A model generated the notes under the pieces. It had not been told where the DNA came from, made no database searches, and saw only the letters and a list, made by a program, of their open reading frames with translations. Both the position numbers and the translations under genes were made by a program. This document shows, in pieces, positions 4,522-9,080 of a DNA stretch of 9,858 nt. This DNA comes from Chloroflexota bacterium (GTDB taxonomy: Bacteria; Chloroflexota; Anaerolineae; CG2-30-64-16): contig JAKPQT010000275.1 in NCBI GenBank assembly GCA_029555885.1, positions 1 through 9,858 on the forward strand, in the 5' to 3' direction. Position 1 is the stretch's first letter, and the number at the start of each line of letters is the position of its first letter.

Positions 4522-6126
4522 ATGCAACTGGCCCAACTGCTCCAGGACGTGCCGGGCATTGCCGCGGTCGCCGGCCCGACGGACATCCCTATCACCCGTA
4601 TTGTCTCAGACTCGCGCCAGGTTGTGCCCGGCGCGCTATTCGTCGCGTACCGCGGGGTCGGCACGGATGCACACCGCTACATCCCCGATGCGGTGAGCCG
4701 CGACGCGGCAGCTATTGTGGGCGAGGCGCCTGCCGGTGAGACGGCTGCGGGCGCAGCCACGTATGTGCAGGTGGCGGACGGCCGCGCGGCGCTGGGCTGG
4801 CTGTGTGCAGCGTGGGAAGGGCATCCGAGCCGTGCGCTGGCCCTCGTCGGCGTGACAGGCACGGATGGCAAGACGACCACGACGAACCTGCTGTACGCGA
4901 TGCTGCGCGCGGCCGGCCGCCGCGCCGGGCTCATCAGCACGGTCAACGCGGTCATCGGGGACGCGGTGTACGACACGGGGCTGCACACCACCACGCCGGA
5001 TGCGGCGGACGTGCAGCACTACCTCAGCGAGATGCGCGCGGTCGGGACGGAAGTCGGGGTGCTGGAAGTGACGTCTCACGGCCTGGCGCAGCACCGCGTG
5101 ACCGGCTGCCTGTTCGATGTGGCGGTCGTCACCAACATCACTCACGAACACCTGGACTTCCACGGCGATTATGCCGGGTATCGCGCTGCCAAGGCCATGC
5201 TCTTTCGCTCGCTGACCGCGCAGCCGCCCCACCTGGCGGTCAAGCCGGGCATCAGCCAGCCGCCGAAGAGCGCGGTGCTGAACCGCGATGATTCCTCGTT
5301 CGAATACCTGGCCGGCCTGCCTGCGGCGCGCACCTTCACCTATGGTCGGGGTGCCGCGACCGGGCCGGGCACGCACCTGACCGCGCACGACGTGACACAT
5401 GCTCCCCGCGGGCTGTCTTGCACGATCGCGGTCACGGGTGACGCCTCGACCGATGTCGCGCCGTTCCAGATTCGTAGTCCGCTGGTCGGGGATTTCAACG
5501 TCTCGAACATCCTTGCGGCCGCCGCAGCCGGGCTGGCGCTGGGGCTGCCGCCGGACGCCATTGCCGCGGGCGTTGCCGCCATGACGGGCATCCCCGGCCG
5601 GATGGAGCGCCTCGACCGCGACCAGCCGTTTACCGCCATCGTGGATTTCGCGCACACGCCGAATGCGCTGGCGGTTGCACTGGACACGGTGCGCGGGCTG
5701 GCGGGCCGCGAGGGGCGCGTCATCTGCGTCTTCGGCAGCGCGGGCCTGCGCGACCGCGAGAAGCGCCGCCTGATGGGGCAGGTTGCCGCGCGCCGCGCCG
5801 ACTTCACGGTCGTCACCGCCGAGGACCCGCGCACGGAAGAACTGGCAGCCATCATGGCCGAGACGACCGGCGAGATGGTCATGCTGGGGCGGGTGGAGGG
5901 CCGCGACTTCGTGGGCATCCCCGACCGCCAGCGCGCGATCCTCTATGCGGTGCAACAGGCGCAGCCCGGCGACGTAGTCGTGGTGTGTGGGAAGGGCCAC
6001 GAACAGTCGATGTGCTTCGGCACGGTGGAGCACCCGTGGCGTGACCAGGATGCGCTGGCCTGGGCGTTGGACTATTCACAGGGCCGCGCAGCAGCTCAGC
6101 CGCCATTCGTGCTGCCGACGTGGTAG
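4522..6126 (+). CDS. murE: UDP-N-acetylmuramoyl-dipeptide ligase adding the third (diamino acid) residue, MurE
   Basis: Cytoplasmic ATP-dependent Mur ligase that adds the third amino acid to UDP-MurNAc-L-Ala-D-Glu in peptidoglycan precursor synthesis; 534 residues. The N-terminal domain binds the UDP-sugar (VSDSRQVVPGALFVAYRG). The central ATPase domain has the P-loop GTDGKTTTT (Gly113-Thr121), HTTTPDA, EVTSHGL and NITHEHLDFHG, with Lys224 in RAAKAMLF at the place of the carbamylated lysine of E. coli MurE. The C-terminal domain has GRMERLD, DFAHTPNAL and GKGHEQ (His493-Glu494). The amino-acid recognition motif reads EDPR (434-437) rather than the DNPR of diaminopimelate-adding enzymes, so the residue added may be ornithine or lysine. 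The ATG is one base after the preceding stop, suggesting coupled translation; AGGA (4503-4506) is a weak ribosome binding site. Family assignment is firm; the substrate is uncertain. Confidence 0.96.
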   Translation: MQLAQLLQDVPGIAAVAGPTDIPITRIVSDSRQVVPGALFVAYRGVGTDAHRYIPDAVSRDAAAIVGEAPAGETAAGAATYVQVADGRAALGWLCAAWEGHPSRALALVGVTGTDGKTTTTNLLYAMLRAAGRRAGLISTVNAVIGDAVYDTGLHTTTPDAADVQHYLSEMRAVGTEVGVLEVTSHGLAQHRVTGCLFDVAVVTNITHEHLDFHGDYAGYRAAKAMLFRSLTAQPPHLAVKPGISQPPKSAVLNRDDSSFEYLAGLPAARTFTYGRGAATGPGTHLTAHDVTHAPRGLSCTIAVTGDASTDVAPFQIRSPLVGDFNVSNILAAAAAGLALGLPPDAIAAGVAAMTGIPGRMERLDRDQPFTAIVDFAHTPNALAVALDTVRGLAGREGRVICVFGSAGLRDREKRRLMGQVAARRADFTVVTAEDPRTEELAAIMAETTGEMVMLGRVEGRDFVGIPDRQRAILYAVQQAQPGDVVVVCGKGHEQSMCFGTVEHPWRDQDALAWALDYSQGRAAAQPPFVLPTW

Positions 6127-6161
6127 TGGAAATCTCGAATTTGGCGCCATGCGGAAGATTG

Positions 6162-6200
6162 CCGGCCATATCTGGAATTCCGATCTACGAGCCGGTTTTT
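6162..6200 (+). terminator. Weak candidate terminator after murE
   Basis: CCGGC (6162-6166) can pair with GCCGG (6191-6195), and five T residues follow at once (6196-6200). The stem is only 5 bp and the loop is 24 bases, so the fold is marginal. If real, it would end the nuo-murE transcript just before the promoter proposed at 6199-6227. Confidence 0.25.
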
Positions 6201-6227
6201 GGATAAATCTGCCACGCGTAGTACAAT
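6199..6227 (+). promoter_or_regulatory. Candidate sigma-70 promoter upstream of the corA leader
   Basis: TTGGAT (6199-6204) and TACAAT (6222-6227) are separated by exactly 17 bases. The -10 box matches the consensus at 5 of 6 positions; the -35 matches only its first three bases. The surroundings are richer in A and T than the flanking genes. A transcript would start near 6234, just before the first hairpin of the downstream run, which supports the call. Confidence 0.45.
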
Positions 6228-6382
6228 AGACGAACGAAATACCTGCTAATCGCAGCGGTGTATTGAAGCGATTGGGAGCCCAGCTTCCGGGAGCCCGGCC
6301 AGCACGTGCCGAGGTTCCAGGGCATCGAGCGCCCGAGGATGTAGAACTTAGGTTTATGGATACAAAACCTGGTAGTACGAGC

Positions 6383-6429
6383 AGCGCCGGCAGTCCGACG
6401 CCACCGACCCGGTCGGTGGGATCGGCGCT
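6383..6429 (+). repeat. Two-tier inverted repeat (strong hairpin) within the corA upstream region
   Basis: The outer stem AGCGCCG (6383-6389) pairs perfectly with CGGCGCT (6423-6429). The inner stem CCACCGAC (6401-6408) pairs perfectly with GTCGGTGG (6412-6419) around a CCG loop. The arms are separated by an asymmetric internal loop of 11 and 3 bases. This is the strongest fold in the gene-free stretch. No T tract follows, so it is not a terminator. Confidence 0.75.
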
Positions 6430-6528
6430 CCGGCACAATCAAACACAGCAGCAGCCGGTGTTGCGCCGGCCCCTGCGTATGCTCGACCCCTCCCTGGTGA
6501 TCCCCGTCAGGAACTAGACCCCCTGGCC

Positions 6529-6558
6529 GCCGGAGCACCTGCGAGAAGGTGGGCCGGC
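6529..6558 (+). other. Hairpin with symmetric internal loop in the corA leader
   Basis: GCCGG (6529-6533) pairs with CCGGC (6554-6558), and CACCT (6536-6540) pairs with AGGTG (6547-6551). AG and GG form a 2x2 internal loop and GCGAGA the terminal loop. Its 3' arm with adjoining bases (6553-6561) is also perfectly complementary over 9 bases to 6693-6701, next to the corA ribosome binding site, which gives two mutually exclusive pairings. Confidence 0.55.
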
Positions 6559-6692
6559 AGCGTTAACCTGCTCCTGCTGTCATTTCTGATACTCTGAACA
6601 GGCCGTCTCATCCTGGCAGTGACCGGGTGCGCGGCGTCTCGTCACGTCTGGGGTCAGGCCACGCGTGGCGCGCACGCGCGTGGGTCTGTCAG

Positions 6693-6712
6693 GCTGCCGG
6701 CAAGGAGGCAGC
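6693..6712 (+). promoter_or_regulatory. Hairpin overlapping the corA ribosome binding site
   Basis: The corA Shine-Dalgarno AAGGAGG (6702-6708) is a near-perfect match and lies 5 bases before the ATG at 6714. GCTGCC (6693-6698) is perfectly complementary to GGCAGC (6707-6712). That hairpin places AAGGA in the loop, the last two G residues in the stem, and ends one base before the start codon. It could reduce ribosome access. Regulation is an inference from this geometry. Confidence 0.45.
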
Positions 6713-6713
6713 A

Positions 6714-7643
6714 ATGATCACGATGTACAAGACCGGAGAGCAGGGACTCGAAGTTATCGATGAGATCACGAAGGGCTGCTGGATCAACGTGGTTGACCCG
6801 ACTCCCGAGGAGCTGATGAAGCTGCGCGAGCTCGATGTCCCGTACGAGTTCGTCACGTATCCGCTAGACCTCGATGAGCGGCCACGCGTGGAGCGCGAGG
6901 ACGGCGAAACCATGATCCTGCTGCGGGTTCCCTTTTACCAGGGCGCGCAGTCCGATGTACCATATACGACCATCCCGATGGGGGTCGTGTTGGACGGCCA
7001 GTGGATCATGACGGTCTGCCGCCATGACCACGATATCCTGCGGGAGATGGCGAGCGGCCGGATTCGGGGCCTTTCGACGGCCAAGCGTAATCGCTTCATC
7101 CTGCAGCTCTTGCTCAATGCTGCCAGCAAATACCTGGCTTATCTGCGCGAGATCAACAAATCGGTCGATACGCTGGAGGACCGGCTCCAGATGTCGATGC
7201 AGAACCGCGAGCTACTGGGGTTGCTGAAGTATCAGAAGAGCCTGGTCTACTTTACGACCGCGCTCAAGGCCAACGAGCTGATGATGGAGCGGCTGCACCG
7301 GTCGGGCTTCTTCCGCACCTATCCGGAGGACGAGGACCTGCTGGAGGATGTCATCACGGAAAACCAGCAGGCCATCGAAATGACGAACATCGCCAGCAAC
7401 ATTCTCAGTTCCATGATGGATGCGTTTGCGTCCATCATCTCGAACAACATGAACATCGTGATGAAGTTCCTGGCCGCTGCAACGATCGTGATCGCCCTGC
7501 CGACCCTGGTTGCCAGCCTGTTCGGTATGAACGTGCCGGTGCCAATGGGGGATATACCGTGGGCGTTCCCGCTGATTATCGTGGTTTCGCTGGTGCCGGT
7601 GCTGATCGTGATTCGCGTGTTCGTGCGCAGGGGGTGGATGTAG
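6714..7643 (+). CDS. corA: CorA-family divalent cation (magnesium) transporter
   Basis: Inner-membrane channel of the CorA family, expected to form a pentamer that lets Mg2+ (or Co2+/Ni2+) into the cell. The 309-residue protein has a soluble N-terminal domain (about 1-150), then long charged helices that would form the funnel (about 150-250). TM1 lies at about 252-270 and ends in the family signature Gly271-Met272-Asn273. A short loop and TM2 (about 284-303) follow, with a basic C-terminus (RRGWM). The loop after GMN reads VPVPMGDIPW and lacks the usual MPEL, as in shorter CorA-like subfamilies, so the transported ion is less certain. The ATG at 6714 is chosen over the GTG at 6627 because of the strong AAGGAGG at 6702-6708 and because the homologous region begins there. 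It appears to be a single-gene unit with its own leader and terminator. Confidence 0.93.
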   Translation: MITMYKTGEQGLEVIDEITKGCWINVVDPTPEELMKLRELDVPYEFVTYPLDLDERPRVEREDGETMILLRVPFYQGAQSDVPYTTIPMGVVLDGQWIMTVCRHDHDILREMASGRIRGLSTAKRNRFILQLLLNAASKYLAYLREINKSVDTLEDRLQMSMQNRELLGLLKYQKSLVYFTTALKANELMMERLHRSGFFRTYPEDEDLLEDVITENQQAIEMTNIASNILSSMMDAFASIISNNMNIVMKFLAAATIVIALPTLVASLFGMNVPVPMGDIPWAFPLIIVVSLVPVLIVIRVFVRRGWM

Positions 7644-7662
7644 GCGATGAGTAGACCTAAAC

Positions 7663-7701
7663 AAAAGGCCGGTTGAGGCGATTTCCTCAGCCGGCCTTTT
7701 T
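7663..7701. terminator. Bidirectional Rho-independent terminator between corA and the CHAT gene
   Basis: A 12-bp stem (7667-7678 with 7685-7696, one G-T pair) encloses the loop CGATTT. It is flanked by AAAA (7663-7666) and TTTTT (7697-7701), so it can terminate in both directions. It lies 20 bases after the corA stop and 15 bases beyond the stop of the convergent CHAT gene. Confidence 0.93.
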
Positions 7702-7715
7702 GTGTCCACAAAACG

Positions 7716-9080
7716 TTACTTGCGCGCCGCTGCCGTCAACGCTGCATCCAGGGCCTGAAGGCGCTGTTGGACTAGCTCGAGGCCGCGCTGGGCGAGGTCG
7801 CGCACCTCACGCTGCGGGTCATTCAGCCGGGCGCGGTAGGATTCTTCCGCGCGGCGCAAGGTCTGGCGCCAGGCGAACAGGCTCGTGGCATCCGCGCCCT
7901 TGTAGTCGTCGTCCAGCGCCGCGGACTCATCCAGCGAGGCTTGGAGTGTTTCCAGGCGCGCGCGGCGCAGGATCGGGTCCAGCGCGGAGCGGCTGTCTGT
8001 CGCGGGTGTCAGCCGATAGATGATGCCGTCGGCCGCGTGGGTGTACAGGACGGGCGCAGCCCAGGCCGGACTGTGAGGATATACGATCGCGAGCATGCTG
8101 CGCGCATAGGCGACCGCCACATCCACCTGGCCTGCGCCTTCGCCCAGGCACAGCGATTTATAGAATTCACGCGCAAACGTGATGGCCGGATCGTCGCCGA
8201 TGGGATACTGCATGGCGACGACCGCAGGGACGCCGAAGCGCACCATCTGCGGCGCCAGGCCCTGAAAGGCCCGTGCATCATCGACGCGCCCGCTGCTGCA
8301 GACGTTGAGGATCACCAGGCGCGTGGCTTGATAGTTGACTGCAATCTGCGACAGGGCCGCACCATCCATCCAGTCGAGCTTGCCGTTCGGATGGTTGAGG
8401 CTGATGTAGCCGCGGCCATCGGTGAACGTGCCGTGCCCGCTGAAGTGGACGATGTCATAGTTGCCGACGAGCAGCGCGTCGGTCAGGTCCGTGCGGGTGA
8501 CAATCCCATCGAGCACGTGCAGTCGCAGCACGTCCGGCATGGCCGCCACCACGCGCTCGATGTTCTGGCGTTCCTGGGCCAGTTGCAGGTCGGAGGTCGC
8601 GGGCAGCACTAGCAGCAGGTTCAGCGGCAGGGCCGTCTCCTGCTCAGCCAGGCTGCCGAAGTGCTGGGTCTGGTCATAGTAGCGCACGAGCAGGGTGGCG
8701 GGTGAGGTTGCGAAAACGTGGCCGCGCGCCGGATCGCGCAGCAGCTCCCACGGCCACGCGGCAATCTCCGGCGGGTCGATGCTCAGCCGGATGCGGAGTC
8801 CCGCGCGGCTCCGCTGCGCCCGATCCCAGGCGACGCGCAGATGCGACTCCACCGGGCCGGGCGCGACCCAGCGAAACAGGGCCTCGCCCGCGGTGCGTGC
8901 GGCCTCGTCTGCCGCGCCGCCATGCAGCACCTCGCTCACGCGGCCGAGCCGGGTCTTGAGCTCCGGCGGGGGCAGCGGCAGCACGACGGACACCCGCCCC
9001 GTCTCGCTGCTCGTGGCCGTCAGGTCATAGCCCTGTTTTTCGTGCTCGGTGATGGTAAGCGTGAAATCGTGATAGCGCAT
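7716..9080 (-). CDS. CHAT-domain (caspase-like) cysteine protease
   Basis: A 454-residue predicted cysteine protease of the CHAT family (clan CD, related to caspases and separase). The N-terminal region (1-80) looks beta-rich. A helical linker and the segment DPPEIAAWPWELLRDP (102-117) follow; an LPWELL-like motif just before the protease domain is common in CHAT proteins. The CHAT domain spans about 150-346 and holds both catalytic residues: His216 in VHFSGHG and Cys261 in LNVCSSG, followed by GVPAVVAMQYPI (283-294). The C-terminal part (about 370-454) is charged and helical, possibly coiled-coil. There are no TPR repeats, signal peptide or membrane helix, so it should be cytoplasmic. AAGGA lies just before the ATG (about 9085-9089). 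It is 42 bases downstream of the fabL-like gene on the same strand. Substrate and role are unknown; CHAT proteins occur in defence and programmed cell death systems, but no such partner is visible here. Confidence 0.9.
   Translation of the reverse strand: MRYHDFTLTITEHEKQGYDLTATSSETGRVSVVLPLPPPELKTRLGRVSEVLHGGAADEAARTAGEALFRWVAPGPVESHLRVAWDRAQRSRAGLRIRLSIDPPEIAAWPWELLRDPARGHVFATSPATLLVRYYDQTQHFGSLAEQETALPLNLLLVLPATSDLQLAQERQNIERVVAAMPDVLRLHVLDGIVTRTDLTDALLVGNYDIVHFSGHGTFTDGRGYISLNHPNGKLDWMDGAALSQIAVNYQATRLVILNVCSSGRVDDARAFQGLAPQMVRFGVPAVVAMQYPIGDDPAITFAREFYKSLCLGEGAGQVDVAVAYARSMLAIVYPHSPAWAAPVLYTHAADGIIYRLTPATDSRSALDPILRRARLETLQASLDESAALDDDYKGADATSLFAWRQTLRRAEESYRARLNDPQREVRDLAQRGLELVQQRLQALDAALTAAARK

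Follow-up and report, generated by a model that had tools for sequence, protein, structure and literature searches.

A conserved corA leader with an upstream ORF in Anaerolineae is a candidate magnesium-responsive leader-peptide attenuator

The riboswitch-type elements M-box (ykoK) and Mg_sensor are leaders of Mg2+ transporter genes. A second type of leader, known from gut bacteria, works through a short upstream ORF, and three reports describe it as follows. On the EPDP motif of MgtL, ribosomes drop off at low Mg2+ (PMC11282234). The mgtQ-mgtB leader has a tiny ORF whose acidic codons are needed for control; they govern a hairpin by which the ribosome-binding site of mgtB is hidden (PMC8092293). 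Expression of corA in E. coli was thought to be constitutive until recently, and translation of the corL ORF is inversely related to corA expression (PMC11552253). No report of corA leader peptides outside the enterics was among the matches listed in the open-access literature, although this does not prove their absence.

Here we describe a corA leader from another phylum. The stretch of DNA that was analyzed (the window) comprises 9,858 nucleotides of a Chloroflexota genome (contig JAKPQT010000275.1). A MurE-like Mur ligase gene extends to 6126 and the first base of corA is 6714, which leaves the 587-base gap (6127-6713) reported in the initial annotation. We assign a probability of roughly 0.55 to the reading that this gap is a transcribed corA leader working as a leader-peptide attenuator. 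By analogy with MgtL, CorL and MgtQ, the attenuation would be magnesium-responsive; Mg2+ is proposed as the cue because of the mgtQ and corL precedents and the identity of the controlled gene. We regard the leader as a real feature for which the evidence is strongest in relatives of the window, and our confidence for the window itself is moderate.

The gene at 6714..7643 (plus strand) belongs to the CorA Mg2+ transporter family (Pfam CorA, 4.1e-52) and scored 126 bits against the NCBIfam corA equivalog, below the cut-off of 200.75. Its product, from which the window was also judged to be of Chloroflexota origin, shares 91% identity with the CorA of Chloroflexi bacterium ADurb.Bin325 (L001) and 83% and 73% with those of two Anaerolineae MAGs (L002 and L003, respectively). 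The corA frame is open upstream to a GTG at 6627, so a longer CorA is formally possible; the Shine-Dalgarno (SD) sequence AAGGAGG at 6702-6708, correctly singled out earlier as a strong ribosome-binding site, supports the start at 6714. A gene for a CHAT-domain (caspase-like) protein (7716-9080, minus strand) is convergent with corA, and between the two lies an inverted repeat with a T-run (about 7660-7702) that was not called by the terminator scan. No tRNA or tmRNA was found in the window.

The gap could not be assigned to a known RNA family. The whole Rfam library gave no match in the window at gathering score, in keeping with the earlier remark that no M-box signature was visible, and at E<=10 the region 6050-6800 gave four matches, the best of which (E 4.4) is unrelated. 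A protein gene in the gap was also rejected, as its ORF at 6356-6517 matched neither Pfam nor NCBIfam, and a search of predicted proteins at E<=0.01 gave no relative. An early idea, that of a frameshifted membrane-protein gene, was dropped because of frame-breaking indels in the gap of L001.

A conserved promoter and leader can be read directly from the sequences. The promoter-like TTGGAT-N17-TACAAT of the initial annotation is present at 6199..6227 on the plus strand (-35-type box at 6199-6204, -10-type box at 6222-6227), and a consensus scan found the same site with a 16-nt spacer (one found, 0.3 expected). Transcription would be expected to start at about 6234, giving a putative corA leader, that is, a 5' untranslated region with an upstream ORF, at 6234..6713 on the plus strand. 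Positions 6228-6713 were 80.1% identical to L063, the same locus as L001 (383 identities among 478 columns without gaps; 11 of the 489 alignment columns are gapped), whereas positions 6127-6198, upstream of the promoter, were only 37% identical. On this alignment, the promoter marks where conservation sets in. Boxes of the type TTG...TA.A.T, spaced by 17 nt, occur at similar distances from corA in the window (-515) and in four relatives, namely L063 (-511), L065 (-546; the same place as L003), L066 (-494) and L067 (-486), and a sixth locus, L064, has a comparable promoter box at -302. Ten genomes of the order of L001 were examined, and five had this type of corA. Only short blocks are common to the window and the four relatives, one of which, CTGCTGTCA, is identical in all five. 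The order and strand of promoter, ORF, shared blocks and corA are the same in the window, L063, L065, L066 and L067, and for this reason the separate non-coding RNA that had been put forward as an option is less likely.

These observations might reflect an unregulated, merely long 5' region that looks conserved only because the two closest genomes diverged recently. Such a region would fit the blastn search with the gap, which gave a match only in L001 among L001-L005, and the leader of L064, which aligns poorly and lacks a counterpart ORF. We nevertheless consider this very unlikely, since identity drops so steeply at the promoter and since the CTGCTGTCA block and a hairpin behind the ORF are retained in relatives with no more than 66-73% CorA identity.

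Inside the gap lies a 53-codon ORF (6356..6517, plus strand; MDTKPGSTSSAGSPTPPTRS...) that the initial annotation had missed. It is preceded by a weak SD-like AGG (6350-6352) and stands between promoter and transporter gene, as do the ORFs of the MgtL, CorL and MgtQ type. Counterparts occur in five of the six corA loci of the window's order, the window included, with lengths of 53 amino acids in the window and L063, 49 in L065, and 44 in both L066 and L067. Their N-termini (MDTKPGSTSSAGSPTPP in the window, MDTKPGSTSDAGSPTPS in L063, METDTQPGSTCDASP in L065, MSSDSLPSSPNP in L066 and MSNDPLPSSTSP in L067) contain much Pro but few acidic residues; among the first 18 residues of the window peptide a single one is acidic, so that this peptide is only Pro-rich. 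The ORFs of the window and L063 are of the same length and align without gaps up to the stop codon. Their first 17 codons differ at two, one and zero places in codon positions 1, 2 and 3, and three differences are too few to tell whether the start is kept as peptide or as RNA. The remaining codons differ at 4, 13 and 9 places, so the tail bears no sign of peptide constraint. A wide family defined by the N-terminus of the window type was rejected, since the pattern ATGGANACN{3,12}CCTGGTAGTA gave matches in only 4 of 380 Chloroflexota genomes; the match of G001 is its corA leader, and two others lie on contigs without that genome's corA.

Three of the relatives carry a second ORF with the SD sequence GGAGG, for which no counterpart was seen in the window or L063. 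It starts 146 nt before corA in L066 and L067, where it overlaps the corA start codon, and 188 nt before corA in L065, where it ends 29 nt before the gene. Its SD lies in a strong hairpin, in which element B (see below) of L065, L066 and L067 pairs locally with it, and the arrangement resembles a two-ORF leader.

Short ORFs before corA are not confined to the window's order. This type of corA was found in 37 of 298 genomes of the class of L001 (E<=1e-20), and a second sample, of 301 genomes from a large order, yielded it in 113 (E<=1e-50). We compiled 119 upstream regions with corA starts set, comprising 30 from the class sample, 28 from the order sample, 60 further loci and the window, and listed one best ORF per region; regions that contained N, were too short or were near-duplicates (L153) were removed before counting. 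Many of the 119 have a short ORF with an odd N-terminus between promoter and corA, for example MYHTDESDLGSSDSNPPS, MLPDSDSDLDPDDKQ, MDDHLPAEPDHQ or MNDDPANQDSDPLSSSKKPP-stop. We scored SD-preceded ORFs of 10-60 codons in the last 220 nt by the number of Asp, Glu and Pro minus Lys and Arg in residues 2-18. A score of at least 5 was reached in 27 of 117 leaders, compared with a mean of 0.8 in shuffles and none in reverse complements. Natural controls gave a similar picture (27/116 leaders vs 4/230 windows further upstream; for long loci, 10/53 leaders vs 2/314 other windows of the same loci), and 89 of the 116 sampled leaders were below the threshold. A second score, at least 5 Asp, Glu or Pro of which at least 2 acidic, was reached in 38 of 117 leaders, whereas shuffles gave 2.7 (8 at most) and reverse complements 3. 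These scored counts (27/117, 27/116, 38/117 and those of EPDP-like cores below) are free of hand choice; the leaders are mutually related, and the counts therefore overstate the independent events. The window ORF scores 4, below the threshold, and at 358 nt before corA it lies outside the 220 nt that were scored.

Acidic and Pro-rich ORFs with a codon pattern of the translated type thus recur in Anaerolineae, as the differences in 35 ORFs, chosen from the 119 for showing the layout, illustrate. In the core from the acidic residues to Pro-Pro, these amounted to 0.318, 0.227 and 0.544 at codon positions 1, 2 and 3, compared with 0.564, 0.555 and 0.626 in the tail. Acidic columns swap GAT, GAC, GAA and GAG (column 19 holds 20 Asp, 14 Glu and 1 Ser, in four acidic codons), and Pro columns swap CCG, CCT and CCA. 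Over the well-occupied columns of core and tail together pN/pS was 0.60, which places the constraint chiefly in the core. The bias across codon positions suggests translation of this acidic core.

The 35 ORFs are most constant at Pro-Pro, where one of the two columns has Pro at all 34 occupied places and the other at 33 of 34, in several codons. It could be speculated that the leader peptide senses a cue other than Mg2+, the Pro-Pro codons reporting EF-P activity, proline-tRNA or polyamines. In this direction also point the Pro-Pro-stop ends of 11 of the 119 best-scoring ORFs and the mgtP leader, which is reported to respond to proline limitation (PMC3641672). On the other hand, the acidic residues look constrained too, the controlled gene is that of a Mg2+ transporter, and 14 of 20 Listeriaceae leaders have a core like the EPDP of MgtL. 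We therefore consider a cue other than Mg2+ unlikely, though a reading to be weighed, and prefer magnesium-responsive attenuation.

In L093, L095, L097, L099, L104, L110, L112 and L124 the leader peptide is 17-21 residues long and closes with Pro-Pro-stop, and those of L096, L111 and L139 also have Pro-Pro at the end; the Pro-Pro-stop is likely a termination-pausing motif. In L147, L149 and L169 the leader peptide MQEEKSYDLDPDPRR is followed by a hairpin and T-run before corA, by eye a terminator. An intrinsic terminator scan of the L147 and L169 leaders called none, and we make no claim of transcription attenuation there. A divergent tmRNA gene lies directly upstream of corA in L004, L068, L072, L105, L106, L118, L132 and L152. 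ARAGORN, run on these eight loci, which had been picked for tmRNA-like upstream sequence, found a tmRNA in all eight; the tag that it gave for L072 looks misplaced.

Mutually exclusive hairpins were evident in one Anaerolineae subgroup, represented by an alignment (A1) of 24 leaders, likewise chosen from the 119 for showing the layout. Element A, the last codons and stop of the ORF (typically CATCACGTAG), pairs with element B (CTGCGTGATG). Paired cells made up 93.4% of A:B, 4 of its 10 pairs were changed on both sides (7 such cells), and none of 500 shuffles reached its covariation score; slid versions were at most 50.4% paired. The alternative partner of B is element C (TCACGCAAGGAGG), the corA ribosome-binding site, with 90.7% paired. 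B:C covariation is weak, with 2 pairs changed on both sides, which 27 of 500 shuffles reach, so that the subgroup has a covarying A:B and a conserved B:C pairing. RNAalifold picked the SD-sequestering B:C hairpin unprompted. The two pairings exclude each other and their energies are close in the 24 leaders (mean -21.9 for A:B and -20.0 for B:C, with B:C better in 12 of 24). With A:B forced, the SD was unpaired at 0.53, compared with 0.28 with B:C forced, and the value was higher in 20 of 24.

Equilibrium folding with the ribosome early or late gave no switch: mean SD unpaired was 0.243 and 0.217, respectively, in 25 leaders. In the window (0.62 early, 0.79 late) and L063 (0.18, 0.62) the change was in the wrong direction, in L065 (0.46, 0.47) it was flat and in L066 (0.42, 0.07) it was in the right direction, these four being the leaders of the window's group that the calculation covered. 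A switch would therefore have to depend on folding during transcription.

A model of this region built from the 24 A1 leaders, which includes the corA SD and start, was searched with at most 16 candidates scored per genome and strict filters. Of 301 whole genomes, 32 had a match, never more than one, and every match ends at the corA start. The training genomes account for 24 of these; among the 8 others, one closely duplicates a training genome, and the specificity of the model is free of hand choice only for the 8 outside the training set.

Elements A, B and C can also be placed in the window, all on the plus strand. Element A is ACAGCAG (6445..6451), inside the upstream ORF, and was found by RNAalifold in the window and four relatives. 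Element B (ACCTGCTCCTGCTGTCA, 6566..6582), with CTGCTGT at 6574-6580 and supported by the identical CTGCTGTCA block, is the predicted alternative partner of A and of the corA SD, and element C (6702..6712) is the corA SD with CAGC. Across the window and four relatives, A:B was nearly invariant, with 97.1% of cells paired. Among upstream partners of B, A ranks first in the window and second in L063. When the 16 nt before corA were paired with 440 positions, B scored best in both the window and L063, but with 20 nt it is not among the best six partners of the window SD, and the preference of the SD for B thus depends on the stretch chosen. Between ORF stop and B lies the hairpin GCCGCCGG.GCACC / GGTGG.CCGGCAGC (6526..6561), with 83.3% of cells paired in the window and four relatives; one of its 12 pairs shows a two-sided change, seen in 2 sequences. 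By eye, we also noted a hairpin CCACCG...CGGTGG over the Pro-Pro codons of the ORF (6401..6419), whose L063 counterpart, CCATCG...CGATGG, has one compensatory change from C-G to U-A. The window leader is a probable, divergent member of the Anaerolineae set of corA leaders built round a short upstream ORF; membership is only probable because the elements are placeable but hardly vary and because the SD partner shifts with 20 nt.

Conserved structure of this kind could also belong to a metal-binding, riboswitch-like RNA leader in which the ORF is incidental. The leader is long and structured: the fold of 6234-6713 beat 100 of 100 shuffles (z -2.2), a modest excess by this prediction, and folding 6356-6583 to a consensus over the window and four relatives gave 39 pairs, with a change on both sides in 6. 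The retention of the 6526-6561 hairpin and of A:B and the unconstrained peptide tail would likewise suit such an RNA. However, there was no Rfam match, no structure of the window type was seen by eye in other corA leaders, and covariation of the two helices tested in the window group was at chance (161 of 500 shuffles reached the score), the stems being too invariant. Hence a metal-binding RNA is an improbable reading, and the window leader is probably not an aptamer riboswitch. The riboswitch-like leader of the initial annotation holds insofar as the leader is conserved, unmatched in Rfam and may sense an ion; a structured RNA is not its best description because the relatives share a short ORF with an unusual N-terminus, behind which, where there are sequences enough to test it, come mutually exclusive hairpins around the corA ribosome-binding site. 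Conservation in relatives, which that annotation had named as a check, was found, but covariation in the window group was not above chance. We retain the leader-peptide attenuator as the most likely explanation.

Similar leader peptides occur outside the Chloroflexota. Short ORFs with an EPDP, EPEP or DPDP core precede corA in Listeria, Brochothrix and Priestia, and a wider expression matched 20 of 58 corA loci (17 Bacilli and 3 spirochaetes). An EPDP-like core, taken as [DE]P[DE] or P[DE]P within residues 2-26, was present in 14 of 20 Listeriaceae leaders (0.1 in shuffles), the set being the 20 of 61 corA loci picked by genus, Brochothrix included. The corresponding figures were 4 of 30 for Bacilli (0.1), 1 of 29 for Spirochaetia (0.3) and 3 of 117 for Anaerolineae (0.6). 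Within the Bacillota, such cores were thus found in Listeria, Brochothrix, Priestia and some other Bacilli. By the second score, 10 of 29 Spirochaetia (1.2 in shuffles), 4 of 30 Bacilli (0.7) and 9 of 20 Listeriaceae (0.3) were positive. EPDP-core ORFs lie directly before corA in L010-L012, L015, L016, L029, L243, L244 and other Bacilli loci. The spirochaete ORF MDTYPGSSHSDS resembles the start of the window ORF, and a pattern from spirochaete-type ORFs occurred once in each of three spirochaete genomes and was absent from three Bacilli; the likeness to the window may be chance, because a start of the window type is otherwise rare. Acidic and Pro-rich leader peptides in Chloroflexota, Bacillota and Spirochaetota might mean that bacteria in general sense Mg2+ for CorA through nascent-chain destabilization of the ribosome. 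One peptide sensor would then have been joined to a different RNA switch in each lineage, and the window would be a divergent member. We put this forward tentatively, with doubt slightly outweighing belief.

A mechanism can be proposed as follows. Ribosomes would start on the upstream ORF, and full translation would let them cover A, so that B would remain available for the corA ribosome-binding site (C) and corA would be off. Early fall-off or a pause on the Asp/Glu/Pro-rich N-terminus would instead allow A:B to form, so that the corA site would be open and corA on. The signal is likely low Mg2+, since low Mg2+ makes ribosomes drop off a nascent chain of the MgtL type. We infer ribosome drop-off, the Mg2+ signal and the direction of control, and the same working in the window's member. 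If this is true, a type of switch known from gut bacteria operates in another phylum, the stability of the ribosome itself is a widely used Mg2+ gauge far outside the enterics, and many natural peptide variants are at hand for testing what makes ribosomes fall off.

Compared with the described systems, the window shares with the M-box (ykoK) and Mg_sensor its place as leader of a Mg2+ transporter gene, whereas the scan with the whole Rfam library found neither in the window. For the enteric corL and mgtL the comparison was made with motifs quoted in the papers. Like the leader of corL-corA in E. coli and Salmonella, the Anaerolineae leaders have an upstream ORF before corA, whose translation would be inversely related to corA expression, and in the subgroup two alternative structures, but corL has few acidic or Pro residues and acts through Rho termination, while the peptides of the Anaerolineae subgroup are acidic and Pro-rich (PMC11552253). 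With mgtL-mgtA the Anaerolineae set shares a putative leader peptide with an acidic/Pro motif; in contrast, mgtL uses Rho-dependent termination where the visible target in the Anaerolineae subgroup is the ribosome-binding site, and the window peptide has no EPDP (PMC11282234). The mgtQ-mgtB leader of Salmonella has a short ORF with Asp/Glu near its start before a Mg2+ transporter gene, alternative stem-loops and a sequestered ribosome-binding site (PMC8092293), for which the Anaerolineae subgroup has predicted counterparts. It differs in controlling mgtB and sitting in an operon, and the Chloroflexota leaders are known from sequence alone. The Anaerolineae subgroup has the same parts as mgtQ-mgtB and corL-corA, in similar order.
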